Shown here piece after piece: positions 20,887 through 36,964 of a DNA stretch of 61,850 nt. Below the pieces are notes generated by a model, which ran no database searches, was not told the DNA's origin, and saw nothing but the letters and a program-made list of their open reading frames with translations. The translations under genes and the position numbers were made by a program. Positions within the stretch are counted from its first letter, which is position 1; each line of letters starts with the position of its first letter. Source of the DNA: Erysipelotrichaceae bacterium (GTDB taxonomy: Bacteria > Bacillota_I > Bacilli_A > Erysipelotrichales > Erysipelotrichaceae); the NCBI GenBank assembly GCA_030536265.1, contig JAUNQJ010000002.1, forward strand, positions 1 through 61,850, in the 5' to 3' direction.

Positions 20887-21243
20887 ATGCATAATCGTAA
20901 ATTAGGTCGTACTGCTGACCATCGTAAAGCATTACTTAGAAATCTAGCTACTGAAGTAATCTTGAGAGGAAAAATTGAGACTACTGAAATGAAAGCTAAA
21001 GAATTAAGAAGCGTTGTTGATGGCTTAATCACTATCGCTAAAAAGAACACTTTAGCTGCTAGACGCCAAGCTGCTGCATACTTAAGACCAGTTACTAACA
21101 AAGCTGGAAAAACAGCTGTTCAAGTATTATTTGATGAAGTTGCACCAAAATATGCAGACAGAAAAGGTGGCTACACTAGAGTTACTAAGACTGATATCAG
21201 ACGTGGTGACCAAGCACCAATGGCAATTATCGAATTAGTATAA
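20887..21243 (+). CDS. rplQ: Ribosomal protein L17 (last gene of the operon; element inserted at its 3' end)
   Basis: This is a 50S exit-region protein, 118 aa, normal. Motifs are [20 protein letters not shown] and the terminal [11 protein letters not shown]. Its last codons and stop (21224-21248) form a 25-bp sequence found again at 36940-36964 with two differences, which marks it as the integration site of the element that follows. The reading frame is fully intact, so integration keeps the protein functional. Confidence 0.98.
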
Positions 21244-21248
21244 TTGAA
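21224..21248 (+). other. Left att site (core inside rplQ)
   Basis: AATTATC (21225-21231), GAATTAG (21232-21238) and TATAATT (21239-21245) form two inverted 7-mers around a 7-base centre, the layout of a tyrosine-recombinase core with a 7-bp crossover. Compared with the right copy it differs at 21231 and 21246 only. The stop codon of rplQ lies in the right half-site. Confidence 0.75.
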
Positions 21249-21256
21249 ACATCAAT

Positions 21257-21283
21257 AAAAGCCCTAGAAATAGGGCTTTTGTA
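21257..21283 (+). terminator. Terminator of the ribosomal operon (supplied by the element)
   Basis: A 10-bp perfect stem AAAAGCCCTA/TAGGGCTTTT with a GAAA loop lies 13 bases after the rplQ stop. It lies inside the left att edge; the equivalent position outside the right att has a different terminator (36967-36991), probably the original one. Confidence 0.93.
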
Positions 21284-21287
21284 ATGC

Positions 21288-21309
21288 TTTGACTAAAATT
21301 TGACTAAAA
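21288..21309 (+). repeat. Left arm-type repeat pair
   Basis: TTTGACTAAAA occurs twice without a gap (21288-21298 and 21299-21309), 43 bases inside the left core. A matching pair lies at 36825-36846. Such 11-bp direct repeats are the usual targets of the N-terminal arm-binding domain of integrases. Confidence 0.65.
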
Positions 21310-21341
21310 GAAATCATATTTTCATAACATTTAGGGTTATT

Positions 21342-22748
21342 TTAACCCTTTTTTTGATTGTTGCTGTTATGAATTTTAGAGTATTCTTTTTTATAAGCTT
21401 CTAATAACTGCTTAGATATATCTACAATTTCATCATTCTCGTTCATATCTAAGTTCTCAGTTATAATACAACTTTGTTGGCCTTCAATGCAAATGCTTAG
21501 AGGGTCATTTTGTTCCCTTGTGCTTATCTGTAGAGACATATGATCATGTACTTTAAGTTTGATATCATTGATGTTTTTGCTAATATTTGCTTCTTCGTTA
21601 ATTCTTGAATCATTACCAAACAGTTTATTAAGAGGATGATTTTGAATCTTTTTGTAGATGTTTAGTAGGAACTCTTCTGAACCATAGAATTTTCTATCGA
21701 GAGGTGCATTTGACATATCGTGCCCCATGACATATTGTATTTCAGTTTGGTCAAGTGATAAGTTATGGTACATTGTCGCTATATTTCTTCTCAGAATATA
21801 GGCTGTAGGAGTTTTCTCATCAATATCATATTCTTCATCTTTTTGTTCGAGTAAAGCGGAAATGGTTGAGTAATCTTCTTTTGAATAGCCTAGAATATCT
21901 TTAAGCATTGCTTTACCAGCTGCAGAGATTTCTTTGGCTGTACAATTTGTTATAAAATCTTTTTTGCAAGCAATTGGCAAATCATCAACATTATCTCGAT
22001 TTGTCATTTTCTTTACATATTCTTCTCTTTTTCTAAGGAATGTTAAAAGAAAATTTATTAATGGATTAGCTCTTGGACTATTACATGTTTTTGATCCAGA
22101 TTTTAGAACTCTTTTGCCATGAACTGTGCTGTTATATCCAGTTTCCATAAAATAGGCATCATAATCACCAATTTGTTTAATCGAACCAAACGTCATACCG
22201 ACAACTTCATTTTCTCTTGAAGGCAAAGCAAACATAATAGCTAGACCTATTTTCTCACCTTCTTCGCAAGGGTTGGTATACAAGTAATCGTATGCTTTGA
22301 TATTTTGATCAATTGATAGTGATTTAGGAATTTTGCTTAAAGCATCATTTAAATTATTTGTGTTATTTGATGCATAGAATTGAAGAGATGTACCCCATAG
22401 AGGATTTATACTTTCTTTTTCATTTCTTTTGTAGTAGTGATTTATTGCGTCAGTAAATAGATGACTATAATTCTTTCTCATGCTATCATCACTAGAACCT
22501 GTTTTATTTTGAATAACGTTCAAATATTTTTGGATTAATTCTTCATCAAATTTATCCATCGTTAACGCAATATTGATGATTGGAAAAATATCATCGTTAT
22601 ATCTACCGATATATGTATCTTTTGTCTCATCATTACAATTTGATTTAAAATCATCAAAATTTTGAATGACGTAGCCAATAAAATTTTGTTCTCCCTTAGG
22701 AGTTAGTTTCGGATATTTAATAGAAAATAGTCTTACGTTTTTATTCAT
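21342..22748 (-). CDS. Tyrosine recombinase (468 aa), third gene of the recombinase operon
   Basis: The catalytic centre of the tyrosine recombinase family is recognisable: R178 in LPSREN, a beta-strand lysine K216 or K220 (VLKSGSK followed by SPRANPL), R320/R321 in YILRRNIAT where the usual His is Tyr, H343 in MGHD, and Y355 in DRKFY. The ~150-residue N-terminal part would be the core-binding domain, and an unusual ~110-residue C-terminal tail follows the nucleophile. The start overlaps the 960-aa gene by 8 bases with GAGGAG upstream, so the two are translated together. The product probably cuts and rejoins DNA as a partner of the large protein. The exact family is not known to me. Confidence 0.75.
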   Translation of the reverse strand: MNKNVRLFSIKYPKLTPKGEQNFIGYVIQNFDDFKSNCNDETKDTYIGRYNDDIFPIINIALTMDKFDEELIQKYLNVIQNKTGSSDDSMRKNYSHLFTDAINHYYKRNEKESINPLWGTSLQFYASNNTNNLNDALSKIPKSLSIDQNIKAYDYLYTNPCEEGEKIGLAIMFALPSRENEVVGMTFGSIKQIGDYDAYFMETGYNSTVHGKRVLKSGSKTCNSPRANPLINFLLTFLRKREEYVKKMTNRDNVDDLPIACKKDFITNCTAKEISAAGKAMLKDILGYSKEDYSTISALLEQKDEEYDIDEKTPTAYILRRNIATMYHNLSLDQTEIQYVMGHDMSNAPLDRKFYGSEEFLLNIYKKIQNHPLNKLFGNDSRINEEANISKNINDIKLKVHDHMSLQISTREQNDPLSICIEGQQSCIITENLDMNENDEIVDISKQLLEAYKKEYSKIHNSNNQKKG

Positions 22749-25623
22749 TTTCGTTCTCCTCGTTATTTGTACGTATCATATCGAAACCATAATCGTTTGA
22801 TATGTTAATAGTTGCTTGTACATTGGCACAAACTTCAATATTCAAAATAGTTCTTGAAGAAATATTGTGTGATAAGTAATTAATAGTTTCATTATTGTGA
22901 GTTTGCTTATATGACAAATATTTCTTTTCATCAAAAATAAGCGATGAAAGCCTTTCTTGTTTAATAAGCATTTGATACATGCTTGGTTCGCTATCATAAT
23001 CGCAATAGTTGTTGGAAAAAACATCTGTTGCTATATTACCGCATGAATGTTCAAGCTCATCTTCGGTATATTTGCATTCCATGATGCTGTAATAACGGTA
23101 ATTATTCCTTAGTAGATCACTATGTGAATTACTCAAATTAACTTCCTCTTTACCATCTTTTGTATGTAAATATGTAATATCATCCTTAATGTTTAATTTT
23201 TTAAGTTCTTTTTTACACATTTTAGAAAGCTTATATGGTGATAAGATAGCATATTCTTTATTAGCTAGAATTAAGTCACCTTCAAATAATGGCGTTTCTT
23301 GTACTCTTAAGGCAGGAATATCTGTGTGACTTCTGACAATGATGTTTTTTAATGCTAGCAATAAGTCAGACAGAAATATTGGTAATACAATATTTCGATA
23401 TTTGTAACTGGTTGTTAACTGTTTGAAATGCCCACTGTCATCAACGAATCTTCTTATTTTCAGATAGTATATCTCTTTACCTTTGTATGTAAAGTGTTTG
23501 AATTTAAAAATGTCCATAATTCTTAGAGCACATATTTCTCTATATTCTAATGGAGTAAATATCTTAAGAAGAATTGCTACCATTATTGATAAGTTATGCT
23601 TGTAAGATGATTCTACATTCCTGACAAGAGTTTTAAATTGCTTAAGGTTTATTGATGCTTTATTTCTTGCATTTTTAACATCAATAATTCCTTGTCTATC
23701 CTTGTTGATGAATCTTAATTCACCTTTAATAGGATTGTTTTTTGCATGCCCTTTTGCAATAGCATAATCAAATAATTTTGATATAAGTCTTTTTGCAATT
23801 ATTTTGTTTTTATTATCTTCACTTTCTCTATAGTAATTATCAAGATAATCATTAATCAATTTTGAATTAAGATTTCTTGGAAGAATCCAACCAAGTTCGC
23901 CATCAAGTAGTTCTTTAATAATTGCACTTTCTTCTTTTGATAGACTGTTTTCAATATCTTCATAAAATAGAAATAAAGATTTGAAAGATATTTCTTCGCT
24001 ACTTAATACATTTTTGAATTCATTTGATACATCACTACGAATAGATAAGCCATCCATATTTGATCTTTTTGAAATGAAGAAGTATTTATCATTTATGAAA
24101 CTATCTAATTGAGAAAGTAAGATATTGGTAATTTGTTTTCTACTGCAATCCATTTTGTTTCCTTTATCTTTATTAATTGTTCCATTTCTATTTTTAATAG
24201 GTGTTTTAATATAAACATTAATCACAGGACAATTACTATTTTTCTGAGGTGATGCAGTGTAGCGAATACGTATTTCATTTGAATAATCAATGAATGACGA
24301 AATCTTTCTTTCTTGATTGGTAAGTAGCAAATGATTATCATATTCATGGTTATAATATGCCCTTAAGTTGCTATTCTTATATACTTCGCTTTGCATTGTA
24401 GCTTGATAAGGGATTAATTTAAGCAATTGATATTCACCAGAACGATTTAGAGAATATGAATTAATATTGATAGAACTTACTTTTTTTCTCGAAAAAATAA
24501 GCAATATCTTTCTTTCGGGTTTTGTGCAATTGTTTATTCCAGAAGGGAATAGTGTGGCAGAACAAACCGAATATTTATTATCAACAAGATATCTTTTAAT
24601 AGTTAATTTATCTGAATCAATTCTATTATCGGGGCCAAATATCAATACATTAGTAGTTTCGTCATGATAACTTTCAATCATTTCGATTATTGATATCAAA
24701 TTAGAATCGTTTTCATGAGAATTAGCAAAAAACAACATCGTTCCTACTAATTCAGAAGACATCATTGCATTAAACTCAAAATTTTCCATTGTAGTGAATT
24801 TAACATTTTTTTGTTTATATACTTGACTATATATAATAACCATATCCTCGTTATTTACAACAATGATATACTCGTTACTATTGATTAATGAATCATTTAG
24901 TAGTTTTTTCACAAAGAATGGAGAAGGGAATGCAATTATATGTCGCTTATTAACACTATTTAAAATGAATGAAGAATAGGCATAATAAACATTTTTATTT
25001 TCCACCTCGCAATCATTTGAATCTGGATTTGTAACTATTAGACTTGCAGCATCAAGGCATACTTTTTGCTTAAGTGTTCGTAAACATAACTTCACTCTTT
25101 TTCTTTGTTCCTTACTAATGTCTTTATCAAGATAATCAATTAGTTCATCTTCAGTTATGCCATTAGTAGATGATGAAAATGATAGAAAATGTACTATTTC
25201 ATTATCTGAAAAATTTAGTATTTTAAGAATGTTTACAAGTTCATATGCTTTTTCTACACAATCGATTTCTTTGCCCTTTAATGTAGTTGAGTTTATGTAA
25301 CTGTAGAATTTAATAAATTCATTAGAAGACAAATGCTTGTCCTTGTATATTTCACAAAATTTATCATATAACTCATTTTTGTTGTTTGCTGAATGACTTC
25401 TATATTTAATGAAATACTCGCTTGCTCTATGAAGAGCAGAAATTAGGTTATATTTCTGCTCTTCTGATTCCGAAGTAGATAGTAAGTACGTTTTTAAGCC
25501 ATCTATATCATTCACAAGTTCAGGAGCTTTGGTTCTAATAAACCCATATACTGTTGTGTGGCTTGTTGCTTTGTTAGCTACAATTTTCTTTAGCTCATTC
25601 AATTTGTCAATTATTAATTCCAT
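22741..25623 (-). CDS. Large tyrosine-recombinase-like protein with a methyltransferase-like central domain (960 aa)
   Basis: Three parts are visible. Residues 1-~215 are helical with no recognised motif. Residues ~225-380 resemble the Rossmann core of N6 DNA methyltransferases: a strand-loop FPSPFFVKKLL, an acidic strand end YIIVVNNEDM, VKFTTMENFEF, then VLIFGPDNRIDSDKLTIKRYL and a late LPSG-like turn (LFPSGINN), but the SAM loop and NPPY motif are lost (ANSHEND instead). Residues ~560-890 resemble a tyrosine recombinase: YREICALRIMDI with R695, SHSDLLRNNY with R839, H859 in EHSCGN, and tyrosines near 873-876. Key positions are degenerate, so it may be a structural or DNA-binding partner. 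It starts 2 bases after the upstream zinc-finger gene. Confidence 0.6.
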   Translation of the reverse strand: MELIIDKLNELKKIVANKATSHTTVYGFIRTKAPELVNDIDGLKTYLLSTSESEEQKYNLISALHRASEYFIKYRSHSANNKNELYDKFCEIYKDKHLSSNEFIKFYSYINSTTLKGKEIDCVEKAYELVNILKILNFSDNEIVHFLSFSSSTNGITEDELIDYLDKDISKEQRKRVKLCLRTLKQKVCLDAASLIVTNPDSNDCEVENKNVYYAYSSFILNSVNKRHIIAFPSPFFVKKLLNDSLINSNEYIIVVNNEDMVIIYSQVYKQKNVKFTTMENFEFNAMMSSELVGTMLFFANSHENDSNLISIIEMIESYHDETTNVLIFGPDNRIDSDKLTIKRYLVDNKYSVCSATLFPSGINNCTKPERKILLIFSRKKVSSININSYSLNRSGEYQLLKLIPYQATMQSEVYKNSNLRAYYNHEYDNHLLLTNQERKISSFIDYSNEIRIRYTASPQKNSNCPVINVYIKTPIKNRNGTINKDKGNKMDCSRKQITNILLSQLDSFINDKYFFISKRSNMDGLSIRSDVSNEFKNVLSSEEISFKSLFLFYEDIENSLSKEESAIIKELLDGELGWILPRNLNSKLINDYLDNYYRESEDNKNKIIAKRLISKLFDYAIAKGHAKNNPIKGELRFINKDRQGIIDVKNARNKASINLKQFKTLVRNVESSYKHNLSIMVAILLKIFTPLEYREICALRIMDIFKFKHFTYKGKEIYYLKIRRFVDDSGHFKQLTTSYKYRNIVLPIFLSDLLLALKNIIVRSHTDIPALRVQETPLFEGDLILANKEYAILSPYKLSKMCKKELKKLNIKDDITYLHTKDGKEEVNLSNSHSDLLRNNYRYYSIMECKYTEDELEHSCGNIATDVFSNNYCDYDSEPSMYQMLIKQERLSSLIFDEKKYLSYKQTHNNETINYLSHNISSRTILNIEVCANVQATINISNDYGFDMIRTNNEENENE

Positions 25624-25625
25624 GG

Positions 25626-26525
25626 CTAATCTTCCTCATAATTAACAAAACCAACAGATCCTTTATTGGTGACGATTTTATAACATGTTCTTTGATTGTT
25701 ACCAAGAATCCTTTTTAATTCTCCAAAGATAATAATATTCTTTTTTTTACTTCTTGGTATTTTTGTGTTATTACCAGTAACTTTTGCTTTGAATGATTCA
25801 TTTATTTTATCGTTATTAAGTTTTGTTGCGATATATACTTCTTTATCACCGCTAATTAAACTTGTTAGCCTAAACCATGTATAAGTATCATCAATACTTT
25901 TTATAGAAGTTCTAGGCATGCATCTTTCAGTAATGAAAAGCATAGGTCTATTAGCCAAACCCTCGTTTGTCATGATTGCAAATTTTTCAGCGTCAAGCAC
26001 GATATCATTTATTGATATTCCAAGATCTGTAATAGTACAACCAAGTCCTTGTTGATACAATTTATATATGCCCAAAGCAGTGTTAAAATTATCTGGTTTT
26101 TCAACTCTTTTTTTTGGTCGTCCATTGATTTCATCAATATCTAGATTGATATCAGGTGTTGGACCACCATCATCACCTTTTGGTCGCTCTTTTGGGTCTT
26201 TGTCAACATCAACAAGTAAATGAGCAATATTTGCAATTACATCACCGCTTTTCACCGTCTCTGTTCGTCTTTTCCCAATTGGGCATCCTTTCTTGTGACA
26301 ATTTGAATAGAAGCAGTTCTTCTTATTCTTGTTAATGCGAAGGTGTGCTTTTTCGCCACAAATAGGACAATAATAATCTTTATCCCTATCTTTTTCAGAT
26401 AAATCCTCTGCTTTAATAAGCGGAACGCTTTTATCTTTGCTTGGTCTTGCCATACTAAATGGCAAATGTTTCATTGGCTTATTAGCTAATAAACCAATTT
26501 CGTTTTCATATAATGTTTTATTCAT
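25626..26525 (-). CDS. Zinc-finger protein, first gene of the recombinase operon
   Basis: A 299-aa protein I cannot assign to a family. A cysteine cluster is clear: C53, C56, C71, C76, C81 (YYCPICGEKAHLR, then CFYSNCHKKGCPIG), like the zinc ribbons at the start of primases and recombination proteins. A charged, Pro/Asp-rich linker (about 95-140) follows. The C-terminal half has short strands, a basic RSKKKNIIIFGELKR segment and no enzymatic motif. AGGAG precedes the ATG. It is probably a DNA-recognition accessory to the two recombinases, as its stop is 2 bases from the 960-aa gene; this role is inferred from position and fingers alone. Confidence 0.6.
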   Translation of the reverse strand: MNKTLYENEIGLLANKPMKHLPFSMARPSKDKSVPLIKAEDLSEKDRDKDYYCPICGEKAHLRINKNKKNCFYSNCHKKGCPIGKRRTETVKSGDVIANIAHLLVDVDKDPKERPKGDDGGPTPDINLDIDEINGRPKKRVEKPDNFNTALGIYKLYQQGLGCTITDLGISINDIVLDAEKFAIMTNEGLANRPMLFITERCMPRTSIKSIDDTYTWFRLTSLISGDKEVYIATKLNNDKINESFKAKVTGNNTKIPRSKKKNIIIFGELKRILGNNQRTCYKIVTNKGSVGFVNYEED

Positions 26526-26666
26526 TTTGTTTTTCTCCTATAAATAATTAATGTGATTCATTATTGATTTATTTGTTATCAACTATTGATGATTAATAGC
26601 AAAAAAGATAGGATTTAAAAATCACTAAAATAAAAACTATCTTAAAATTATATTTATTAAAACAAC

Positions 26667-26691
26667 AAAAAAGGATGTTAATCCTTTTTTT
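26667..26691. terminator. Bidirectional terminator
   Basis: A 10-bp stem with GTTA loop; A run on the left and T run on the right, so it can stop transcription from either side. Confidence 0.75.
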
Positions 26692-26857
26692 CTTCTCTAA
26701 CCAGATATTTTATACACTATAAAAAGTGTTGTTTTGAGGTGCTTATTCAAGAAACTTACCTCTTTCTCCCTCTTTTACCCACATCAATAGGTGATAGATA
26801 TCATATTAAATAGAGCTTGAAATATTTAATATATAAATAATCACGTGAGTACAGTTT

Positions 26858-26881
26858 TACTCAACAATATAGTGTTGAGTA
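26858..26881. repeat. 9-bp inverted repeat with 6-bp centre
   Basis: TACTCAACA (26858-26866), ATATAG (26867-26872), TGTTGAGTA (26873-26881), perfect arms. The 9-6-9 layout is that of a tyrosine-recombinase core; it could equally be a weak terminator because TTTCTTCTT follows. Confidence 0.5.
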
Positions 26882-27065
26882 TTTCTTCTTTACTTAAAGC
26901 GTTATTTCATCTATATCTAGTATCAACGAAATCTTCTAAATGTGTTATTTTGTAAGTTGAGCATAGTGCTTCACTAGAATATGCAACAGTACTTCTTATT
27001 ACTTACATATCCATCATACTAATAAATATAAATATATTCAACTATCACAGACTATATGACGAGTA

Positions 27066-27092
27066 ATAAAAAAGCATAATTCATTTATGCTT
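27066..27092 (-). terminator. Terminator of the ribbon-helix-helix gene
   Basis: On the minus strand an 8-bp stem AAGCATAA/TTATGCTT with a 5-base loop runs into TTTTTTA. It overlaps the stop codon of the gene. Confidence 0.85.
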
Positions 27093-27278
27093 GTTTTTGA
27101 TTCTTTCGATCTCTTTATCAGTCAATCTATTTAACATTGAATTAACAGATTCACCATTTGCTACAGCACATTCATTAATTAATTCTTTTTTTCCTTTAGG
27201 CACACGAAAACGGATAGATTCCATATTGTTATCTTCCCATTTCTTACTAGCTCTTTTCTGTGCTTCTGATGCTTTCAT
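27081..27278 (-). CDS. Small ribbon-helix-helix DNA-binding protein
   Basis: A 65-aa protein of the Arc/CopG type: a basic N-terminus (ASEAQKRASKKWEDNN), a beta strand IRFRVPKGKKE at ~21-31, then helix ECAVANGES and helix VNSMLNRLTDKEIE. The ribosome site AAGGG is 7 bases before the ATG. Its own promoter overlaps the palindrome at 27298-27313, and the divergent int leader promoter overlaps a second copy at 27423-27438; it is therefore likely a repressor of itself and of xis-int. The stop codon is TGA, one of only two in the window. Confidence 0.8.
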   Translation of the reverse strand: MKASEAQKRASKKWEDNNMESIRFRVPKGKKELINECAVANGESVNSMLNRLTDKEIERIKNKHK

Positions 27279-27297
27279 ATTTTTCCCTTTTCTTAAT

Positions 27298-27313
27298 TAT
27301 ATGGTACCACATA
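27298..27313. promoter_or_regulatory. Operator 1, over the ribbon-helix-helix gene promoter
   Basis: TATATGGTACCACATA matches 15 of 16 bases of the perfect palindrome at 27423. A minus-strand TATAAT (27301-27296) overlaps its left edge, 20 bases before the gene's start codon. Confidence 0.65.
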
Positions 27314-27440: not shown

Positions 27441-27444
27441 TAGA

Positions 27445-27671: not shown

Positions 27672-27884
27672 ATGTTAGATCAAAAACTATTTTTAACGGC
27701 ATCTGATGTATCTCTTTATATGTCAGTGTCAAAGCCCATGGCTTATAAGATTATTAAAAAGCTCAATGATGAACTTGATGCAAAAGGTTATTTAACAATA
27801 GCCGGTAAAGTTAATCGTAATTACTTTGAACAAAAAATTTATTGTAGTAATACTGCGATGGAGGTATCACATGCCAGCTTATAA
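27672..27884 (+). CDS. xis: Excisionase-like helix-turn-helix protein
   Basis: A 70-aa protein with the layout seen in front of integrases of Gram-positive elements: a winged-helix core LTASDVSLYMSVSKPMAYKI (about 9-28), then KKLNDELDAKGYLTIAGKVNRNYFEQK, where the last part is the usual wing. AAAGGAG lies 10 bases before the ATG. Its last 14 bases overlap the int start, and the int ribosome site (GGAGG) lies inside it, so the two are coupled. It probably bends the att arms to favour excision. Confidence 0.75.
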   Translation: MLDQKLFLTASDVSLYMSVSKPMAYKIIKKLNDELDAKGYLTIAGKVNRNYFEQKIYCSNTAMEVSHASL

Positions 27885-28950
27885 AGACAAGAATGGTAAG
27901 TGGATTGTTAAGTATTCCTATAAGGGACTTGATGGGAAATTCAAAGGTGTTACCAAAAGAGGATTTGAAACAAAAAGGGATGCTTTGAATTGGGAGACTG
28001 ATGCAAAGAAAAAAATTCATGGAATGTTGGATATTTCATTAGAGAGCTTTGCTAGTCAGTACTTAAAATTTATAAGCAACAGAATTAAATTTAGCACATA
28101 TGTTACTAAAGAAGCAATTATTAAAGCTCACATTATTCCATATCTTGGTAGATTCAAAGTTAATGAGATAACTGCAAGGGAAATTGTTGCTTGGCAAGAT
28201 GAAATGCTTAAATGCATAAACAAGAAAACAAATAAAAAATTTTCAAAAGCATACTTAAGGTTATTGCAAAACACGCTGAGTTCAATATTTGCTTATGCGA
28301 CAAGGTACTATAATTTACCAATCAATCCTGTTCATGTGTCTGGAAGCATTGGCGGTGGAAAAGACCGAGAAATGATGTTTTGGACTCAAGAGCAATACAA
28401 AAAGTTTTCAGAAGTGATGATGGATAAACCAATATTCTACTATGCATTCAATTGTCTATATTACCTAGGTATTAGAGAAGGGGAACTATTAGCACTTGAA
28501 GAAAGTGATATTGATTTTGAGAAAAAAGAACTTTCCATTACAAAAACTTACTTAAGAATTAATGGTAAAGATTATATTAATACTCCAAAAACAAAAAAGA
28601 GTATTAGAAAAGTTTCAATTCCAGATTTCTTATGTGAAGAATTAAAAGAGTATTTAAATCTTGAGTATACAAAAAACGAAAATAATAATCGCATATTTCT
28701 GATAGGTAAAACCGCTTTGACAAAAGCATTAATCAAAGGGGCAGATAAAGCAGGTTTGCCTCGAATAAGAGTTCACGACCTAAGACATTCACATGTTTCA
28801 TTGCTGATTGAACTTGGATATTCAGCTGTAGCAATCGCTGATAGAGTTGGACACGAAAGCATTGATATTACATATAGATATGCTCACTTGTTTCCAAACA
28901 AACAAAAGAGTATTGCCAATGATTTAAACAAAATTGCGGAGGATAAGTAA
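27871..28950 (+). CDS. int: Tyrosine-type integrase
   Basis: A 359-aa site-specific integrase. The N-terminal ~45 residues (MPAYKDKNGKWIVKYSYKG and KGFETKRDAL type) form an arm-binding domain of the AP2-like kind; a SAM-like core-binding domain follows to ~165. Catalytic residues: R202 (LGIREGELL), strand lysine in TPKTKKSIRKV, H302 and R305 (HDLRH), H328 (VGHES), and Y337 (YRYAHLF). The ATG at 27871 has TGGAGG 6-7 bases upstream; the frame is open to 27826 but lies over xis. It is the likely enzyme for the att sites at 21224 and 36940. Confidence 0.92.
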   Translation: MPAYKDKNGKWIVKYSYKGLDGKFKGVTKRGFETKRDALNWETDAKKKIHGMLDISLESFASQYLKFISNRIKFSTYVTKEAIIKAHIIPYLGRFKVNEITAREIVAWQDEMLKCINKKTNKKFSKAYLRLLQNTLSSIFAYATRYYNLPINPVHVSGSIGGGKDREMMFWTQEQYKKFSEVMMDKPIFYYAFNCLYYLGIREGELLALEESDIDFEKKELSITKTYLRINGKDYINTPKTKKSIRKVSIPDFLCEELKEYLNLEYTKNENNNRIFLIGKTALTKALIKGADKAGLPRIRVHDLRHSHVSLLIELGYSAVAIADRVGHESIDITYRYAHLFPNKQKSIANDLNKIAEDK

Positions 28951-28951
28951 A

Positions 28952-29293
28952 ATGTGTGAAAACAGAAAAAGAAAAATATTAGTTCGATTCAGAGTTGATG
29001 AGAAAGAAAAAGAATTACTTGACAAATATGTCTCTTTGTCTGGCCTTTCAAGGCAAGAATACTTACAATCCAACATGCTTCATCAACAAATTATTGTTAA
29101 AGGCAATCCGAGAGTATTTAAAGCTCTAAAAACTCAAATGGAAGAAATTCTTCTTGAGTTAAAAAGAATTGAAAATGCTTCTGAAGTAGACGAAGAGTTT
29201 CGAAGACTAATTAAATATGTAGAAGATATGGCTGTAATAATGGCTGAAGAAAACCAACAATTTAATTTAAAGAAGGAGAAAATATGTACTTAA
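28952..29293 (+). CDS. MobC-like ribbon-helix-helix protein
   Basis: A 113-aa protein starting one base after the int stop, with GCGGAGG inside the int tail as ribosome site. The N-terminal strand VRFRVDEKEKELLDKYVSLS and the helix LSRQEYLQSNML match relaxosome accessory proteins of the MobC type; the rest is helical (MEEILLELKRIENASEV). Such proteins help a relaxase open oriT, but no relaxase gene is visible in the element, so it may act on another element's machinery or serve as a regulator. Confidence 0.65.
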   Translation: MCENRKRKILVRFRVDEKEKELLDKYVSLSGLSRQEYLQSNMLHQQIIVKGNPRVFKALKTQMEEILLELKRIENASEVDEEFRRLIKYVEDMAVIMAEENQQFNLKKEKICT

Positions 29294-29640
29294 TTCAAGA
29301 TGAACTTAACGATTGTTCTATTAATCGTAACACCGATTGTGAATTGTGACTTCACTACGATGGCAAAAGAGAAGATAGTTTCTTAGCTGTCTTCTATACA
29401 ACCACAAATAAAATGATGGAGTGTTATAGAGATGATGAAATGTTTAGTCCTATAACACTTCCTCAAACTTCATCTTTATATAGAATCTTACAAATCGCAT
29501 GGAATATCGCAGATTTGCAAGGTCTAGATAAAACTGCAACAGTGATTATTCACTTTAGAGAATTAATTGATATCGATGAAGAAATTAAAGATTTCATTAA
29601 TGATCAAAACAATGAAAAAGGAGTAAAAATTTATGACTAA
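29284..29640 (+). CDS. Small protein gene with an in-frame TGA (codon 22)
   Basis: AAGGAG five bases before the ATG at 29284 gives a clear start, and the frame runs 118 codons to TAA at 29638, but codon 22 (29347-29349) is TGA in the context C-E-L-TGA. After it the frame continues as LHYDGKREDSFLAVFYTT and SSLYRILQIAWNIADLQGLD, with no other stop. Without recoding only 21 aa would be made, or the 75-aa part from ATG 29413. A TGC-to-TGA nonsense mutation is the simplest reading; selenocysteine at a C-x-x-U site is an alternative. The 3' end overlaps the DUF2130 gene by 8 bases. Function unknown; this small gene lies between the MobC-like and DUF2130 genes. Confidence 0.55.
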
Positions 29641-31153
29641 AAACGAAATTAAGTGCCCAAATTGTGGCACAGCAATTCAAATCGATGAGTCTACATATGA
29701 TTCAATCGTCAGCCAAGTTAGAGATGCTGAATTTAATAAAGAAATCTCTAAAAGAGAAGAATTAATGGCTAAAGAAAAACAAGACGCCATTAAGCTTGCT
29801 CAAACTCAAACTGAGTCTTCTATGAAGGATAAATTAGCAGAAAAAGACGCTAAAATTAACGAATTAGATAAGAAGTATGAAGAGTTAAGAGCTAAAGCAA
29901 ATGTTGAGTTCACAAAAAAGAAAAGTGAACATCAAGATGCTTTAAACGAAAAAGATAAGCAAATTAGTGATTTGCAGAATCAACTAAGTAATAGCGAATC
30001 AGCTAAGGAGCTTGCTATCAATGAAGCTACGGAAAGCTATAAGCAACAAATCTTTAAACTTGAAAACGAGTTAAACACTAACAACGAAAAGTTCAAGGCT
30101 TATCTAGATAAGGTTAATGCTGAAAATCAATTAAAACTATCTGATAAAGAAAAAGAAGTAATTGATTTACAAGTGAAATTAAAAGAAAAAGACTCTGAGA
30201 AAGCACTTGTCATCAGCGAACTTGAAAATAAAAGTAAAGAACAAGTAGCTAATCTAAACGCTAAAATCAATTCACTAAATGAAGATTATAGAAACAAAGA
30301 AAACAGTATTAAATCTTCATATGAAGCACAGCTAAAAACCAAGCAAGATGAAGTTGATTTCTATAAAAACTTCAAAGCTAAACAATCTACTAAAGCAATT
30401 GGCGAAGATCTTGAACATTATTGTAGTAATCAATATGACAAGACACTTCGTTCAGTATTCACTAATGCTTTCTTTGAAAAAGATAACGATGTTTCAAAGG
30501 AAACTGGTTCAAAAGGAGACTTCATCTTCAGAGATTATGATGAAGAAAATACTGAATTCATTAGCATCATGATTGAATGTAAGAACGAAGCTGACGAAAC
30601 CGAACACAAGCATAAGAATCAAGATTTCTTTAAAGAATTGGATAAAGATAGAACAGAGAAGAACTGTGAATACGCTGTTCTAGTAACAATGCTTGAACAA
30701 GATAACGACTTGTATGATGATGGCATTCTTGATGTATCACATCAATATCCAAAGATGTATATAGTAAGACCTCAATTCTTAATTCCACTTATTACTCTAC
30801 TAAGAAACGCAGCCTATAAGTCATTAGATTATAAGAAACAACTTGTAATTGCGCAAAACCAAAATTTAGATATTGCTCACTTTGAAGAGAATATGAATAA
30901 CTTTAGAGATACGTTTGGTAGAAATTATAAGTTAGCTTCAGATAAGTTCAAGAAAGCAATTGAAGAAATCGATAAGTCAATTGATCATCTTCAAAAGATT
31001 AAAGATTCTCTTCTATCAAGTGAGAATAATCTAAGACTAGCAAACAATAAAGCTCAGGATTTATCTATCAAAAAGCTAACCCACAATGCACCAAGTGTTG
31101 CAGAAAAGTTTGAAGACATTGCAACCGAGGAGGTACCGCCTGATGATGAATAA
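29633..31153 (+). CDS. DUF2130 protein: zinc ribbon, coiled coil and nuclease-like domain
   Basis: 506 aa. An N-terminal CPNC pair (IKCPNCGTAIQIDESTY) begins the protein, residues ~35-245 form a long Lys/Glu-rich coiled coil, and the DUF2130 domain spans ~250-390. In it GEDLEHYC, KGDFIFRDYD and ISIMIECKNE line up with the E...D...ExK pattern of restriction-endonuclease-like folds. A second helical part with LDKSIDHLQKIKDSL ends the chain. AAGGAG lies upstream of the ATG inside the preceding gene. DUF2130 proteins are of unknown function; the nuclease-like signature suggests DNA binding or cleavage. Confidence 0.8.
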   Translation: MTKNEIKCPNCGTAIQIDESTYDSIVSQVRDAEFNKEISKREELMAKEKQDAIKLAQTQTESSMKDKLAEKDAKINELDKKYEELRAKANVEFTKKKSEHQDALNEKDKQISDLQNQLSNSESAKELAINEATESYKQQIFKLENELNTNNEKFKAYLDKVNAENQLKLSDKEKEVIDLQVKLKEKDSEKALVISELENKSKEQVANLNAKINSLNEDYRNKENSIKSSYEAQLKTKQDEVDFYKNFKAKQSTKAIGEDLEHYCSNQYDKTLRSVFTNAFFEKDNDVSKETGSKGDFIFRDYDEENTEFISIMIECKNEADETEHKHKNQDFFKELDKDRTEKNCEYAVLVTMLEQDNDLYDDGILDVSHQYPKMYIVRPQFLIPLITLLRNAAYKSLDYKKQLVIAQNQNLDIAHFEENMNNFRDTFGRNYKLASDKFKKAIEEIDKSIDHLQKIKDSLLSSENNLRLANNKAQDLSIKKLTHNAPSVAEKFEDIATEEVPPDDE

Positions 31154-31286
31154 ATATCTAGTTCAAGATTGTGATGATGTTCTAGTTAAAGTGTTTGATC
31201 TAGAATCTGATGCACTCAGGTTTATTAAAGCTAAGGGTCAAAATGGGGATTATCATTTATTAGTAGATAGAATAATGGGATACTAG
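31143..31286 (+). CDS. Small hypothetical protein, 47 aa
   Basis: The ATG at 31143 overlaps the DUF2130 gene end by 11 bases and has GAGGAGG 9-10 bases upstream, a strong reason to accept it. The frame is open from 31086 but without a ribosome site. The protein reads MNKYLVQDCDDVLVKVFDLE and onwards, acidic, with no motif I recognise. It is probably translated together with DUF2130 as a partner or regulator. Confidence 0.6.
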   Translation: MMNKYLVQDCDDVLVKVFDLESDALRFIKAKGQNGDYHLLVDRIMGY

Positions 31287-31339
31287 TGCAAAGGATAAAG
31301 GCAATAATTTAACAAATGATTATATTTTTAATAAAAAGA

Positions 31340-31372
31340 AAAAACCAGGTTCATCATACACCTGGTTTTTAA
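31340..31372 (+). terminator. Terminator of the int-DUF2130 transcription unit
   Basis: An 11-bp stem (31340-31350 with 31360-31370, core ACCAGGT/ACCTGGT) with a 9-base loop; A run before and T run after, so it may work on both strands. Confidence 0.9.
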
Positions 31373-31425
31373 AAGAAAACAAGTTACAGTGGTATTCACA
31401 CCCATACTTATATTGATTTAAGTGA

Positions 31426-31453
31426 TGTCCATTAAATAACAATTTAACGGACA
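31426..31453. repeat. Imperfect inverted repeat in the 31287-31672 gap
   Basis: TGTCC-A-TTAAAT pairs with ATTTAA-C-GGACA around a 4-base centre (one mismatch in 12). It is followed by TTTTAATTCTT, so it may be a second terminator or an operator for the transporter promoter 150 bases downstream. The rest of this 386-base gap holds nothing else I can support besides the 31340 terminator and the 31606 promoter. Confidence 0.45.
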
Positions 31454-31605
31454 TTTTAATTCTTATTATTAAGAAAGCTAGAGGAGAAACTATATTGTTT
31501 GGTTATTTTATTAGTTAGGATTATTAAAATATTACTAATAGTCATAGTAATTAATACAAATTGTAAGGATAAGGGTGAAAAGTAACAAGTTCCATTAATA
31601 GTCTA

Positions 31606-31635
31606 TTGACATATATATATATATATATGTATAAT
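31606..31635 (+). promoter_or_regulatory. Promoter of the binding-protein transporter operon
   Basis: Perfect TTGACA (31606-31611), an 18-base spacer that is almost pure (TA)n, and perfect TATAAT (31630-31635). The start codon follows 37 bases later with AAAGGGG as ribosome site. Confidence 0.88.
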
Positions 31636-31672
31636 GAAATCGCTTACAAAGCAAAGAAAAGGGGATAATATT

Positions 31673-33019
31673 ATGAAGAAACTTCTAATGGTTATGCTAA
31701 CAGCATTATTAGCATTAACTGCTTTAGCTGGATGCTCTAACAATGATACACCAAATGATACACCAGTTGAAGAAAATTTATCTGAAGTTCAAAAGATTAT
31801 TGCTGAAGCAGAAGGCATGACTCTTGAAGAACTTGCAAAGAAAGCAATCGAAGAATCTAATGGTAAAACTTTCTATGGCGTTGGTAACTCATCACGTGGT
31901 AAGACAGCTCTTCCTTTATTCATTGATTACTTAAAGTCAATCGATTCTAGTTACTCTATGGATTTTGAATGGCAACAACCAAAGAACAATAAGATCTTCG
32001 AACAATTAACAGCTGATGGTCTTAAAGAAACTGGTACATTTGCTATGACATTAATCCAAGATGGTAACCAAATCGAATCTAAGATGGTTCAAACTGGTGT
32101 CTTAGATACATTCATTCCAAAAGAATGGGCAGAAGCAAATAACACTACTGCTGCTGATTACACTGGATATCTTCCATTACAAACTTTAAATAAGATATTC
32201 GAGTACAACTGCGTAAATCCAAACAAGACTTACACTAACTGTTGGGATTTCGTTGCTGAAGGTGAACATGGATTATTCATGGATATCAACTCAGAAATCG
32301 TTGGTAAGAACTTCTTATACATGTTAACAAAAGATGAATATGCAACTATGTTAAAAGAAGCTTATGACAAGCTTCCTGCTGACAAGCAAGCATATTTCAA
32401 AACTACTATTGACGCTGTAGCTGTTGATGCAACTGACTTAGGCTTAGGCGAAAATGGTAAATACGCTTTAGCATGGATTAAATTATGGGTTAACAGCTAT
32501 AATGCTGTAACTGATGATGGTCCTATCTGCAATACTTTAGTTACTAAATCTGCAGTAGACCAATTTGGTCTATTAGTTTACTCAAAAGTTCGTTCAGTTG
32601 AAGAAACAGACGAAGTATCAGTTAACAACATTAAAGTTGCTGCATATCAAGATGGTTATGAAGGTATGGGTGGATATGCTTACTGCCATTACTTATTCGT
32701 AACTGACAACTCACCACTTCCTTGGACAGCATGTGCATTCATCGCTTATATGACTGAAACAGTAGATGGATTCTCTGCTTGGGGTAAGGATATTGGTGGT
32801 TATTCTTCAAACCCAGTTGTTGCTGCAGGTACTGAAGAAAAATTCCATCACTCAACTGGTGAATCATCAACAGTTGCTTGTGAAACAACAATGGATAAAG
32901 GCTATGACTGGTGGACTACTACTGGTAAGCTAGTTGTTGAAGATCCTAAATATTGTGCTTCTGTAGCATTCACAGTTGGTTCTTGGATTGAAATGCTAGA
33001 CAAGTACACAGCTGAATAA
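31673..33019 (+). CDS. ABC transporter substrate-binding lipoprotein
   Basis: 448 aa. The N-terminus is a lipoprotein signal (MKKLLMVMLTALLALTALAGC) with the lipidated cysteine at position 21, followed by an Asn/Asp/Thr-rich linker. The rest is a two-lobed solute-binding fold with Trp-rich surface loops (WWTTTG, WAEANNTT). It is the first gene of a three-gene importer and would catch the substrate outside the membrane. The permease and ATPase partners resemble the iron(III)/polyamine/thiamine import group, but the ligand cannot be read from sequence. An upstream in-frame ATG at 31634 lies inside the promoter, so 31673 is the start. Confidence 0.85.
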   Translation: MKKLLMVMLTALLALTALAGCSNNDTPNDTPVEENLSEVQKIIAEAEGMTLEELAKKAIEESNGKTFYGVGNSSRGKTALPLFIDYLKSIDSSYSMDFEWQQPKNNKIFEQLTADGLKETGTFAMTLIQDGNQIESKMVQTGVLDTFIPKEWAEANNTTAADYTGYLPLQTLNKIFEYNCVNPNKTYTNCWDFVAEGEHGLFMDINSEIVGKNFLYMLTKDEYATMLKEAYDKLPADKQAYFKTTIDAVAVDATDLGLGENGKYALAWIKLWVNSYNAVTDDGPICNTLVTKSAVDQFGLLVYSKVRSVEETDEVSVNNIKVAAYQDGYEGMGGYAYCHYLFVTDNSPLPWTACAFIAYMTETVDGFSAWGKDIGGYSSNPVVAAGTEEKFHHSTGESSTVACETTMDKGYDWWTTTGKLVVEDPKYCASVAFTVGSWIEMLDKYTAE

Positions 33020-33058
33020 TCTAATTATTAAAATTTAATTATTTTAAAAAGCGATAGT

Positions 33059-33086
33059 GCCTTCGTAGTATTATCTACGAAGGCTC
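33059..33086 (+). promoter_or_regulatory. Hairpin between binding protein and permease
   Basis: A 10-bp perfect stem GCCTTCGTAG/CTACGAAGGC with a TATTAT loop, followed by TCTTTAAAA rather than a full T tract. Placed after a binding-protein gene, such hairpins usually act as leaky terminators or 3' protectors so that more binding protein is made than permease. Confidence 0.7.
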
Positions 33087-33110
33087 TTTAAAATTTTAAG
33101 AGGTATAAAT

Positions 33111-34919
33111 ATGTCAAAGAAGACAAAAATTAAATTAAATAGTATAAAAACATATCTAAGCAAACCTCAAAATGTAATTTTAATTCTTACAGGAATTTTA
33201 GTTACTTTTACAACATTATCTCCAATAATCGCAATAATTGAAGACACAATCAAAATTCATCCTGGAACAATTGATCAATATTTAACAGGAAAAGTAAGTG
33301 GTTATTCATTTATGAACTATATTGATTTGTTTACTAGTAAACTAGCTAAAACAAATCTATGGACACCACTATTAAATACGACAATTCTTGCTATTGGTTC
33401 TTGTAGTTTTGCAATTCTTTTTGGTGGTATTTTTGCATATCTAGTTACAAGAACTAATTTAGTTTTTAAAAAATATTTAAGTTCTATATTTATTTTTCCA
33501 TACATAATGCCTCAATGGACTTTGGCTGTTGTATGGCAAAATCTTTTTAATTCTAATGCGATAACTGGAACCGCAGATGGTTTACTTGCTTCACTATTTA
33601 ATATTCATATGCCTGCATGGTGGTGCGTTGGTTTATTCCCATGTATTATCGTATTAGGCATGCACTATGCACCATTTGCATATATTTTAATAGGTGGCAT
33701 TTTCAAAAATATGGATGCCAATTTAGAAGAAGCAGCAACTATTTTAGATACACCACGTTGGAAAATATTTGCTAGAGTTACTATTCCTATGGTTAAACCT
33801 GCAATACTTTCAACAGTATTATTAGTTACAGGAAGTACAATTGGTTCTTATCCAGTACCACATTATTTAAATTTAAGTACACTTGCTACAAAATATGTTT
33901 CAATGAATGATAAATATACAGGTGAAGCATCAATCATCGCAATTATTATGATGTTATTTGGTGTTGCCATAATGTATTTAAATCAAAGATCATTACATTC
34001 ACGTAAATCATACACAACTGTAACTGGTAAGTCAGGACAAATATCAAAAGTTAATTTAGGAAAAGTTGGCAAATATGTTATTGCAGCTGTATTTGTTGTA
34101 ATTACATTCTTCACATCAATTTTCCCAATTATATCTTTTGCGTTTGAAACATTCTTACCAAATCCTGGTGATTATTCATTCTTATATACAGGTGACACTA
34201 GAAACCTTACTACCAAGTGGTGGATAACAAGTGAAAACATTACCGAGAATGGTATGTATGGACAATTTGGTATTTTATACAATAAGACAATATGGACAGC
34301 ATTTAAAGGAACAATTACTGTTGCGATTGTATGTTGTTTAACCGCAGGTATTATCGGAACATTAATTGGTTATGCTGTAAGTAAAGATAGAAGAGGAAAA
34401 CTTGCAGGCTATGTTAACTCAATGGCATTCTTACCATACTTAATGCCATCAGTTGCAGTAGGTGCTGCATATTTCATCTTATTCTCTTCAGGCAAAATTA
34501 ATTTATTTAATACATATACCGCATTAATAATTGTTGGTACTGTTAAATATATTCCATTTGCATCTAGAAGCTCATTAAATTCTATGTTGCAATTATCAAA
34601 TGAAATTGAAGAGTCTGCGATTATTCAAGATGTACCTTGGATAAAAAGAATGACAAGAATTATTATTCCAATACAAAAAACATCAATTGTATCTGGATTC
34701 TTATTACCATTCATGACATGTTTAAGAGAATTATCATTATTCATGTTGATATGTGTGCAAGGATTTATCTTATCAACGACATTAGATTATTTTGATGAAA
34801 TGGGATTATATGCATTCTCAAGTGGTATCAACTTAATCTTAATCATAACAATTTTAATAAGTAATTTCTTAGTTAATAAGATAACAGGCGCTAGCCTAGA
34901 TGAAGGAATCGGAGGATAA
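33111..34919 (+). CDS. ABC transporter permease, two fused membrane domains
   Basis: 602 aa with about twelve predicted membrane helices. Two permease domains lie in one chain, each with a typical EAA loop for contact with the ATPase: EEAATILDTPRWKIFARVTIP (about 205-225) and EESAIIQDVPWIKRMTRIIIP (about 500-520). Fused permeases of this type occur in iron(III) and related importers (FbpB-like). AAGAGG lies before the ATG. The last codons overlap the region holding the ATPase ribosome site. Confidence 0.9.
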   Translation: MSKKTKIKLNSIKTYLSKPQNVILILTGILVTFTTLSPIIAIIEDTIKIHPGTIDQYLTGKVSGYSFMNYIDLFTSKLAKTNLWTPLLNTTILAIGSCSFAILFGGIFAYLVTRTNLVFKKYLSSIFIFPYIMPQWTLAVVWQNLFNSNAITGTADGLLASLFNIHMPAWWCVGLFPCIIVLGMHYAPFAYILIGGIFKNMDANLEEAATILDTPRWKIFARVTIPMVKPAILSTVLLVTGSTIGSYPVPHYLNLSTLATKYVSMNDKYTGEASIIAIIMMLFGVAIMYLNQRSLHSRKSYTTVTGKSGQISKVNLGKVGKYVIAAVFVVITFFTSIFPIISFAFETFLPNPGDYSFLYTGDTRNLTTKWWITSENITENGMYGQFGILYNKTIWTAFKGTITVAIVCCLTAGIIGTLIGYAVSKDRRGKLAGYVNSMAFLPYLMPSVAVGAAYFILFSSGKINLFNTYTALIIVGTVKYIPFASRSSLNSMLQLSNEIEESAIIQDVPWIKRMTRIIIPIQKTSIVSGFLLPFMTCLRELSLFMLICVQGFILSTTLDYFDEMGLYAFSSGINLILIITILISNFLVNKITGASLDEGIGG

Positions 34920-34923
34920 AAAA

Positions 34924-36567
34924 ATGCCAGTAATCAAATTAGAACACGTAACTAAAAGATGGGATAAATTTTATGCAGTAGATGATTTAAATTTAACAAT
35001 CGATGATAACGCATTTGTTACATTATTAGGACCTTCAGGCTGTGGTAAAACTACTACATTAAGAATGATTGCAGGTCTTGAAACTCCAACAAGTGGAAAG
35101 ATTACAATAGGCGATAGAGTAGTTTATGACTCAGAAGAAGGAATTAATATTCCAGCTAATAAACGTAAAGTTGGATTCTTATTCCAAAACTATGCATTAT
35201 GGCCAAATATGACAGTTTATGAAAATATTTCTTTTGGTTTAACAAATATTAAAGAAGAACTACCTGTGGTATATAGTGATGCTAAAGCAGCTACAGCTAT
35301 GATTAATGCATTAAATAAAGCAAGTGATATTGTAAAAACTATTAATGAATGTGTTGATAAAAAAGGAAAAATAGATTCTAATAAAGCAATGATCAAACTA
35401 ATTGATCGTTATGAAATATCTCAATATTCTGCTAAAAAAATATTGAGTTATAAATTAGAAAATAGTTCTGATATTCAAAGTGAAGCTAATAAACATATTA
35501 CAGAGCTTCAAAAAGTAATAGACAGTGCCAATGAAACTGCAAAATCTAAAGGATATTCAATAGACGATAATTTCCAAGCAACACAAAACGGAAGCGTTGT
35601 TAAAGAAGTTAGAAAACTATCTAAAGAAGAGATAGATTTATCTGTAAGAAGAGTTTCTCGAATTGTAAAAATCGGCATGTTTATGGATAGGTATCCAGCT
35701 GAATTATCAGGTGGTCAACAACAAAGAGTTGCTATTGCAAGAACATTAGCACCTGAGCCAACAGTATTATTTATGGATGAGCCACTTTCAAACTTAGATG
35801 CAAAACTAAGACTTGAAATGAGATCTGAACTTCAACGTTTACATTTAGAAACTGGTTCGACATTTGTATATGTAACACATGATCAAATGGAAGCCATGAC
35901 ATTAGCTACAAGAATTTGTTTAATAGATAATGGTTTATTACAACAATACGATGCTCCATTAGATGTTTATAATAGACCAAATAATTTATTTGTTGCAGAT
36001 TTCGTAGGTAATCCAGCAATTAATTTTATTGATGCTAAAGGTAGCCAATCTGGTAAAAATATTGAATTAAGTATCTTTGATGGAAAGAAAGTTGTATTTA
36101 AACCAAATGAAGAAATTAACATTGATGATTGGCATAAACAACTTGATGATGCTATTGCCAAAGAAAATGCATTGTATCATGAAAAACTAAATACTAAAGG
36201 TTTTGTAGAAAAAACAAATAAAGAAACTAATTTCAAATATCATATTGCTCAAATTGATGAAGAAGAAGATTATGATGATGAAATTCAATTATCTAATGAA
36301 GACTTCGTAATTGGAATTAGACCTGAATTTATTGAAGTTGGAAAAGATGAAAAATTAGCAGGTGAAGTATATTCTTCAATGCCTACTGGTATGGAAACAA
36401 CTGTAAGAATTGCCATTGGCAATTATCTATTAACTAGCGTTATGTTTGGTGGAGTTGTTTACAATCTAGGTGACGAGGTAAATGTTGGATTTAAAGGAAA
36501 TAACGCTATTTTATTTGATAGAAAATCCGGTAAATTCATTTGCCAAGGTAAGATTGAAATTAAATAA
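34924..36567 (+). CDS. ABC importer ATPase with a large insertion
   Basis: 547 aa, longer than the usual ~350. Walker A GPSGCGKTT at 36-44, Q-loop Q88, signature LSGGQQQR at 261-268, Walker B VLFMDEP at 281-287 and the switch histidine H319. The distance from Q-loop to signature is ~173 residues against ~52 in MalK-type ATPases: residues ~110-237 are a charged helical insertion. After ~345 come regulatory OB/TOBE-like domains with an acidic insert (DEEEDYDDE). GGAGG precedes the ATG at 34924; the longer frame from 34900 overlaps the permease. Confidence 0.9.
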   Translation: MPVIKLEHVTKRWDKFYAVDDLNLTIDDNAFVTLLGPSGCGKTTTLRMIAGLETPTSGKITIGDRVVYDSEEGINIPANKRKVGFLFQNYALWPNMTVYENISFGLTNIKEELPVVYSDAKAATAMINALNKASDIVKTINECVDKKGKIDSNKAMIKLIDRYEISQYSAKKILSYKLENSSDIQSEANKHITELQKVIDSANETAKSKGYSIDDNFQATQNGSVVKEVRKLSKEEIDLSVRRVSRIVKIGMFMDRYPAELSGGQQQRVAIARTLAPEPTVLFMDEPLSNLDAKLRLEMRSELQRLHLETGSTFVYVTHDQMEAMTLATRICLIDNGLLQQYDAPLDVYNRPNNLFVADFVGNPAINFIDAKGSQSGKNIELSIFDGKKVVFKPNEEINIDDWHKQLDDAIAKENALYHEKLNTKGFVEKTNKETNFKYHIAQIDEEEDYDDEIQLSNEDFVIGIRPEFIEVGKDEKLAGEVYSSMPTGMETTVRIAIGNYLLTSVMFGGVVYNLGDEVNVGFKGNNAILFDRKSGKFICQGKIEIK

Positions 36568-36600
36568 TCAATATTATAAAGGAAAAGTACTTTTTATTAG

Positions 36601-36774
36601 AGAAATCATAATGGAGTGTTCACTATTTTGGGCGCTGTATATGATAGTGACAATAAAACAGTTACTATCCTATCTAATAAATTATCAAGTTATGCTTTAA
36701 CATACAAGGATACAACTACAGAACCTTTTAGTGAGCCAGAAGATTATCATTCACCAAAGACAGGCGTTGAATAG
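36601..36774 (+). pseudogene. Fossil C-terminus of a sortase-type surface protein
   Basis: A frame with no start codon (a stop lies at 36598) reads NGVFTILGAVYDSDNKTVTI, then LSNKLSSYALTYKDTTTEP and ends SPKTGVE-stop. The SxYALTYKD stretch is the typical end of the last repeat of large cell-surface proteins in gut Bacillota, and SPKTG resembles a sortase motif. The membrane anchor that should follow is cut off by TAG. It lies 33 bases after the ATPase gene and looks like the remnant of a deleted gene. Confidence 0.6.
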
Positions 36775-36824
36775 TAGAAACATTCAAATAGAATGGGAAT
36801 AGCATATATTTTATGTTGTTATAA

Positions 36825-36846
36825 TTTGACTAAAAAATGACTAAAA
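36825..36846 (+). repeat. Right arm-type repeat pair
   Basis: TTTGACTAAAA (36825-36835) directly followed by AATGACTAAAA (36836-36846), the same orientation and spacing as the pair at 21288-21309, and 94 bases inside the right core. Confidence 0.65.
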
Positions 36847-36939
36847 AAGTTTTGGTAAATGTATATAATGTGTATAATTTGGATAAAATAACGAATAAAA
36901 CCACACCAGATATACTGATTATTACACTATTTACTATAT

Positions 36940-36964
36940 CAATTATAGAATTAGTATAATTCAA
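36940..36964 (+). other. Right att site
   Basis: AATTATA (36941-36947), GAATTAG (36948-36954), TATAATT (36955-36961): a perfect inverted pair around the same 7-base centre as the left core. Sequence similarity to the rplQ end stops at the edges of these 25 bases, as expected for recombination and not for gene duplication. Confidence 0.75.

Follow-up and report, generated by a model that had tools for sequence, protein, structure and literature searches.

The window, i.e. the whole stretch of 61,850 nucleotides that was analysed, belongs to a single MAG (79% complete) and carries one copy of an apparent integrated element, which occupies 15.7 kb between two copies of a short repeat, the first of them at the 3′ end of rplQ. 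The genes and other features of the locus are as follows.

20887-21243 (+), rplQ (ribosomal protein L17), the target gene; an ORF with its own stop intact
21224-21248 (+), attL core; the last codons and stop of rplQ plus 5 bases, matching 36940-36964 at 23/25
21257-21280 (+), terminator hairpin inside the left end; hairpins also lie 3′ of guaA in guaA elements
21288-21309 (+), left arm-type sites; two tandem copies of TTTGACTAAAA
21342-22748 (-), trio gene 1; 468-aa tyrosine-recombinase-like protein (weak NCBIfam XerA match, PHROG integrase match and alignments)
22741-25623 (-), trio gene 2; 960-aa protein with a recombinase-like domain (PHROG integrase match and alignment)
25626-26525 (-), trio gene 3; 299-aa protein (weak CoiA_N match below the cut-off; same position in loci L305 and L306)
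27081-27278 (-), Arc-like DNA-binding protein (Pfam Arc; same position in L305 and L306)
27672-27884 (+), xis, excisionase (ICEBs1 Xis-like, below the curated cut-off)
27871-28950 (+), int, tyrosine integrase with an arm-binding domain (359 aa from ATG 27871)
28934-29293 (+), NikA-like mobilisation accessory protein (Pfam NikA-like)
29413-29640 (+), small ORF of 75 aa with no family match
29633-31153 (+), DUF2130 protein, cargo (family scan)
31634-36567 (+), ABC transporter operon (binding protein, fused permease and ATPase); genus-native, either captured cargo or a later arrival
36825-36846 (+), right arm-type sites; TTTGACTAAAA and AATGACTAAAA, with TG 130 and 119 bases before the core TAA
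36940-36964 (+), attR core; 23/25 to the attL core
36967-36990 (+), terminator after attR, presumed to be the original rplQ terminator (flank comparison mixed)

A sequence-only reading of this DNA had proposed a 25-base repeat with 23 identities, and this was borne out: 21224-21248 and 36940-36964 are identical at 23/25 bases, the best match to the core in 200 dinucleotide-preserving shuffles (whole window, either strand) reached 20/25, and the second-best real match to the rplQ core in the window is also 20/25, at 55112. The longest exact run common to the two copies is 14 bp (GAATTAGTATAATT). The core layout proposed by the same reading stood in part. Inverted 7-mers (CAATTAT/ATAATTG) are present in the rplQ copy, where they flank 9 bases (CGAATTAGT) rather than the 7 previously counted, and the right-hand 7-mer of the far copy is ATAATTC instead. 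The tandem 11-mers described just inside both cores were found again, with TTTGACTAAAA in tandem, twice, at 21288-21309 and TTTGACTAAAA followed by AATGACTAAAA at 36825-36846; both end zones score 11/11, and in 20,000 random 55-bp stretches of the window a similarity of at least 9/11 between tandem 11-mers was reached 71 times. rplQ, whose protein shares up to 90% identity with those of same-genus genomes, retains its own codons and stop, in agreement with the earlier view that integration left it intact.

The flanks of rplQ were compared among same-genus regions. The terminators are non-discriminating, as some rplQ genes of the genus resemble the element side and others the far side. In G001 and G029, which have no visible element, rplQ is followed by a hairpin similar to that at 21257-21280; neither a second core of at least 15/17 nor a match to the window integrase was found in the stretches covered (68.6 and 64.5 kb). 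pckA lies 3′ of rplQ in 0 of 17 same-genus regions, for which 1.6 to about 19 kb downstream was covered. Two core-pattern matches (G015:C14 and G002:C62) look like chance and were rejected, the frames that they terminate being 10 and 6 aa long. In G002, another species of the genus, a 281-aa recombinase-looking ORF was seen by eye directly 3′ of rplQ (L036; G002:C2, reverse complement 1439-2284), with no direct repeat detected by the repeat search. Some genomes contain two rplQ matches each, namely G055 (L135 and L136, G055:C39), G040, G036, and G045; both matches of G055 adjoin an rpoA homologue, and their alignment with the window rplQ is limited to the last 28 codons.

The integrase gene between the cores proved to be intact and to encode an arm-binding domain, as previously described, together with SAM-like and catalytic domains. 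ATG 27871 is the start favoured by the alignment, in which R202, K240, H302, R305, H328, and Y337, numbered from that ATG and taken here to be the catalytic residues of Int, are conserved. Like an IME, the locus contains an integrase of its own and att sites. The element is probably mobilisable; no relaxase was detected among the proteins given to Pfam and NCBIfam, the NikA-like accessory protein being the only transfer-related gene product. A prophage was rejected because no phage structural family was found when nine proteins, a set to which the ABC genes do not belong, were compared with PHROGs; their matches fell into integration, regulation, other, or unknown categories. A viral collection yielded four weak matches to the integrase (24-33% identity) and none to rplQ or the arm pattern.

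The three genes nearest to the left end (the trio) encode two recombinase-like proteins with altered motifs and a 299-aa partner. The 468-aa-like proteins retain Arg, Lys, RR, and GH motifs, and carry an invariant Arg nine residues past the His of GH, at the position of the integrase's Tyr, and the 960-aa-like proteins have Glu at the expected first catalytic Arg. Here, the positions of the nucleophile Tyr and the first Arg are those expected from the general motif, set against the integrase alignment. A Tn554-like transposon, the family and motif that we took as the comparison for the trio, was rejected because these key residues are not conserved. The predicted structure of the 468-aa protein has a mean pLDDT of 47, and PADLOC gave no convincing match for 21342-26525. 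Judged from these residues, the trio proteins are unlikely to be the recombinases of this element; perhaps they are cargo, such as defence genes. The module recurs in guaA-type elements. In a close species, a decayed copy of the 468-aa gene was observed (L277, G001:C18, at about 6.5-7.3 kb; and L160), which lies about 10 kb from a guaA-like gene and is perhaps the remnant of an element at guaA.

To place the integrase, a profile of 16 integrases was run over one genome per species, matching at least 590 relatives, of which the best 80 were retained together with flanks of up to 10 kb at either end. Among these 80, int has the 3′ end of guaA upstream of it and co-oriented with it at 58 loci, at 55 of them within 2.5 kb, and rplQ was found at none. 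The 22 loci with no guaA in the stretch covered were counted as misses; four of them have at most 1.3 kb upstream of int, and by eye some have a second int-like ORF upstream. Homologues of xis and of the nikA-like gene occur somewhere in 79 and 77 of the same 80 loci, respectively. At 18 further loci from the family search, guaA was present in 15 (11 in the same and 4 in the opposite orientation) and rplQ in none. Twelve other genomes have both an rplQ position and a strong integrase, but the two are on one contig only in G085, some 658 kb apart. Two integrases in series were noted at L118 and L127, which have guaA near, and at L196 and L207, where none was seen; these may represent tandem accretion of family elements. 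In the source genome, guaA was without a match at E 1e-50; this is uninformative because rplL likewise went undetected.

In a tree of 110 integrases (75 with guaA as the target and 34 with an unknown target), the window integrase is nested among integrases known to target guaA and is sister to the guaA integrase of G226, with support of 100/99. L173, L180, L212, G226, and the window, all of which have trio homologues, form one integrase clade (99/98); G013 and G034 are outside that tree. In G013 and G034, both of the same genus as the source, the order is guaA - trio(-) - arc(-) - xis - int - nikA, which is the order and orientation of the window. G226, which belongs to another genus, carries guaA followed by a hairpin, TTTGACTAAAA-ATTGACTAAAA, and core genes as in the window, and its contig ends ahead of any far core. 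The integrases of these three share 52-56% identity with that of the window; in the comparison of gene order, the values for G013 and G034 were 52% and 51%. G013 has a far core matching at 11/12 bases, 14.5 kb from guaA, and left arms of TTTGAGTAAAA twice, one base off TTTGACTAAAA of the window; in G034, the stretch searched yielded no convincing far end. Thus, the three elements have their core genes in common with the window element, and in G013 and G034 the trio belongs to the shared order, whereas in G226 its order and strand are different; all three are located at guaA instead of rplQ and, where cargo is seen, carry other cargo.

Arm geometry was compared with nine guaA elements picked for a visible far core from 72 guaA ends examined, 40 of which were listed; distances were taken from the stop codon to the TG in the arm motif. 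The left arms of the nine start 58-59 and 69-70 bases past the guaA stop, and their right arms are at -130/-119 from the far stop in L118, L237, and L229 and at -128/-117 in the other six; in L229, the right arms differ in sequence from the left arms. The arms of G013 are at 57/68 (left) and 130/119 (right), and those of the window at 46/57 and 130/119. The right-arm positions of the window are therefore exactly those of G013, and they match 4 of 10 guaA elements exactly and differ by 2 bases in six. In contrast, the left arms of the window are about 11-13 bases nearer the stop than those of guaA elements, i.e. by about one helical turn. Most of the nine far cores read GAGT(GGG, TTC or TTT)GAAT(A/G)(A/G), encoding E-(W/F)-E-stop, and the window core GAATTAGTATAA encodes E-L-V-stop in the same register.

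These comparisons show that the element has much of what characterises the guaA-type family: an integrase in the guaA clade, xis and nikA-like genes accompanying int, and tandem 11-bp arms at a fixed distance from both cores, with the left pair nearer. Its site is the 3′ end of rplQ and not that of guaA, so it is a variant rather than a standard member. Because same-genus guaA elements have the same gene order, because core and arm geometry are shared, and because of the integrase tree, the earlier claim of an integrated tyrosine-recombinase element at the 3′ end of rplQ is supported as the best reading; membership of the guaA-type family, which the sequence-only reading had missed, is an addition to it. 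We consider it quite probable that the 15.7-kb element in the 3′ end of rplQ comes from the widespread guaA-targeting xis-int-nikA family and has moved from guaA to rplQ. Int, together with Xis, would carry out recombination between the two GAATTAG-centred cores, using the 11-mers as arm sites, and the full coding sequence of rplQ would survive the insertion. The ends, the arms, the family, the guaA copies within the genus, and the likeness of the two gene-end words are evident from sequence; the direction of the shift in this lineage, from guaA to rplQ, and the activity, excision, and transfer of the element are inferred. Several observations count against this explanation, namely that it concerns one element in one MAG, that the left arms lie nearer the stop, and that no relaxase was found in the Pfam and NCBIfam scans. 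The non-discriminating terminators, the rank of L035 and the poor far-core score (both given below), the 22 of the best 80 of at least 590 relatives without guaA, and the count for pckA (0/17) are further points of this kind.

The ABC operon bears most directly on the main rival. Its permease shares 89-91% protein identity with copies in 19 of 35 other same-genus genomes (partial copies counted), and its gene order is conserved in 12 of 12 stretches. The DNA identities of the permease and of rpoA-rplQ are almost equal, at 80.6 and 80.5% in G001 and 71.4 and 71.3% in G014. No neighbour of the operon is common to G001 and G002 (20 kb compared), and the 66 pairs of relatives include 7 that do share neighbours, mostly among G012, G022, G029, and G034. 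The source assembly, 79% complete, has one copy. As the divergence follows the host, foreign cargo was rejected: the operon is host-lineage DNA, either taken up by the element or a later arrival, and its agreement with host phylogeny speaks against a simple foreign insert. Capture of a host operon as cargo is likely. By eye, a surface-protein-like C-terminal fragment with its beginning missing lies at 36625-36775, to the left of the right arm sites.

It is possible instead that the locus is a composite of two insertions, in which an element of ~10 kb (21249 to about 31.5 kb) integrated at rplQ lost its right end, the attR-like site at 36.8-37.0 kb is left over from a second copy, and the ABC operon lies between them. 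This main rival, which we regard as improbable, would account for a genus-native operon with a divergence equal to that of rpoA-rplQ and for the C-terminal fragment at about 36625-36775 seen by eye, and integrases in series do occur within the family. However, the same 11-mer arms are found at both ends and their spacing on the right side is that of the family. No third core was seen, the best further match between the element ends being 19/25 at 33014, near which a search allowing up to one mismatch found no arm motif, and the flank past attR is rplQ-like in several relatives. A second alternative, which appears very improbable, is that the trio, and not Int, performed the insertion by a Tn554-like mechanism. 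The trio is indeed nearest to attL, but a match to a trio protein is found in only 3 of the 80 integrase loci (best 80 of at least 590 relatives), of which 58 have guaA; the 468-aa-like proteins have Arg for Tyr and the 960-aa-like proteins Glu for the first Arg; and in G226 the trio differs in order and strand while the left arms are retained. Moreover, since siblings bearing the trio sit at guaA, the trio does not account for the move to rplQ. Least probable of all is a chance repeat or assembly artefact with no element end at 36940, which the single MAG contig would allow but against which stand the 23/25 match (shuffled maximum, 20), the tandem arms, right-arm positions identical to those of a same-genus guaA element, and a longest exact shared run of 14 bp, less than a k-mer misjoin would usually involve.

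The preferred reading, an element of guaA type now residing at rplQ, raises the matter of why rplQ should serve as a site, and the ends of the two genes suggest an answer. The 58 guaA genes (from the best 80 of at least 590 relatives) end in TIEWE (36), TVEWE (8), TIEFE (7), TVEFE (3), TIELE (2), TIEYE (1), and TVEYE (1), so that TIE(W/F)E-stop of guaA is to be compared with (T/I)IELV-stop of rplQ. A weight matrix was built from the 53 distinct 18-base ends of these genes and used to score gene ends, the ORFs behind which are mechanical calls. rplQ ranks first of 58 gene ends in the window. Among 310 gene ends from the window and 17 same-genus regions chosen around rplQ, comprising 18 rplQ ends and no added guaA, places 1-17 are all rplQ, with that of the window 17th, and the 18th rplQ (L035) takes place 19, behind the window's ATPase gene. 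Of 876 gene ends outside the guaA set at the 80 loci (best of at least 590), two score as high, one of which is a second guaA. The far core of the window scores poorly on the matrix (-13.3). rplL, already a target in a related case, also ranks well: of its 20 ends in the genus, 11 are TVEIK and 4 are TVDIK, and 14 outscore rplQ of the window.

On these scores, the element is apparently a guaA type that switched to rplQ via a shared C-terminal word. The last codons of guaA (T-I-E-W/F-E) and of rplQ (T/I-I-E-L-V) would give near-equal core words, and the near identity of the terminal peptides of GuaA and L17, at an equal distance from the stop, would have made the move to rplQ possible. We lean slightly towards a broader rule, by which the DNA word recognised by integrases of this clade is set by the C-terminal peptide (T/I)-(I/V)-E-hydrophobic-x-stop, making them movable among unrelated essential genes with such an end (guaA, rplL, and rplQ), the overlap adopting the new codons, and by which a host operon can travel with the element. 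If so, gene ends alone would predict future attachment sites, and gene 3′ ends could be ranked by their chance of becoming such sites. In our judgement, few intermediate cases bear on the open question of how site-specific integrases gain new targets. Here, two species of one genus have the element backbone at guaA and a third has it at rplQ, and the sequences offer a simple reason for the target chosen, which suggests how such elements find new homes. The element is a real one of an ordinary kind, at a new place for a clear reason.

No report of rplQ as an attachment site was found among the open-licence papers listed, which leaves the earlier statement that rplQ was not known as a target uncontradicted, and the word rplQ is absent from the main text of PMC5357655, PMC4701971, PMC9376610, and PMC8138268. 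rplQ joins the ribosomal-gene targets. Among known systems, GIsul2 and related islands are described at guaA with the core GAGTGGGA, and their integration and excision are reported there to have been demonstrated experimentally (PMC9376610). They resemble the present family in using the 3′ end of guaA and an integrase of their own, and their core word is common to many of the guaA elements found here; they differ in being proteobacterial islands with other gene content and in their location at guaA as against rplQ. The streptococcal Tyr_3 integrases are described as one family with guaA and rplL as targets, for which an evolution from guaA to rplL specificity was inferred (PMC5357655). The likeness lies in the targets, one integrase family using two genes, rather than in a comparison of proteins; unlike Tyr_3, the target here is rplQ and the host lineage is different. 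In the accessible part of the Tyr_3 account, a shared C-terminal word is not given as the reason (PMC5357655). Such a word can account for both this switch and the published one, and the streptococcal change from guaA to rplL may well have had that cause: in the genus studied here, 15 of 20 rplL ends read T-V-E-I-K or T-V-D-I-K, close to the end of GuaA.
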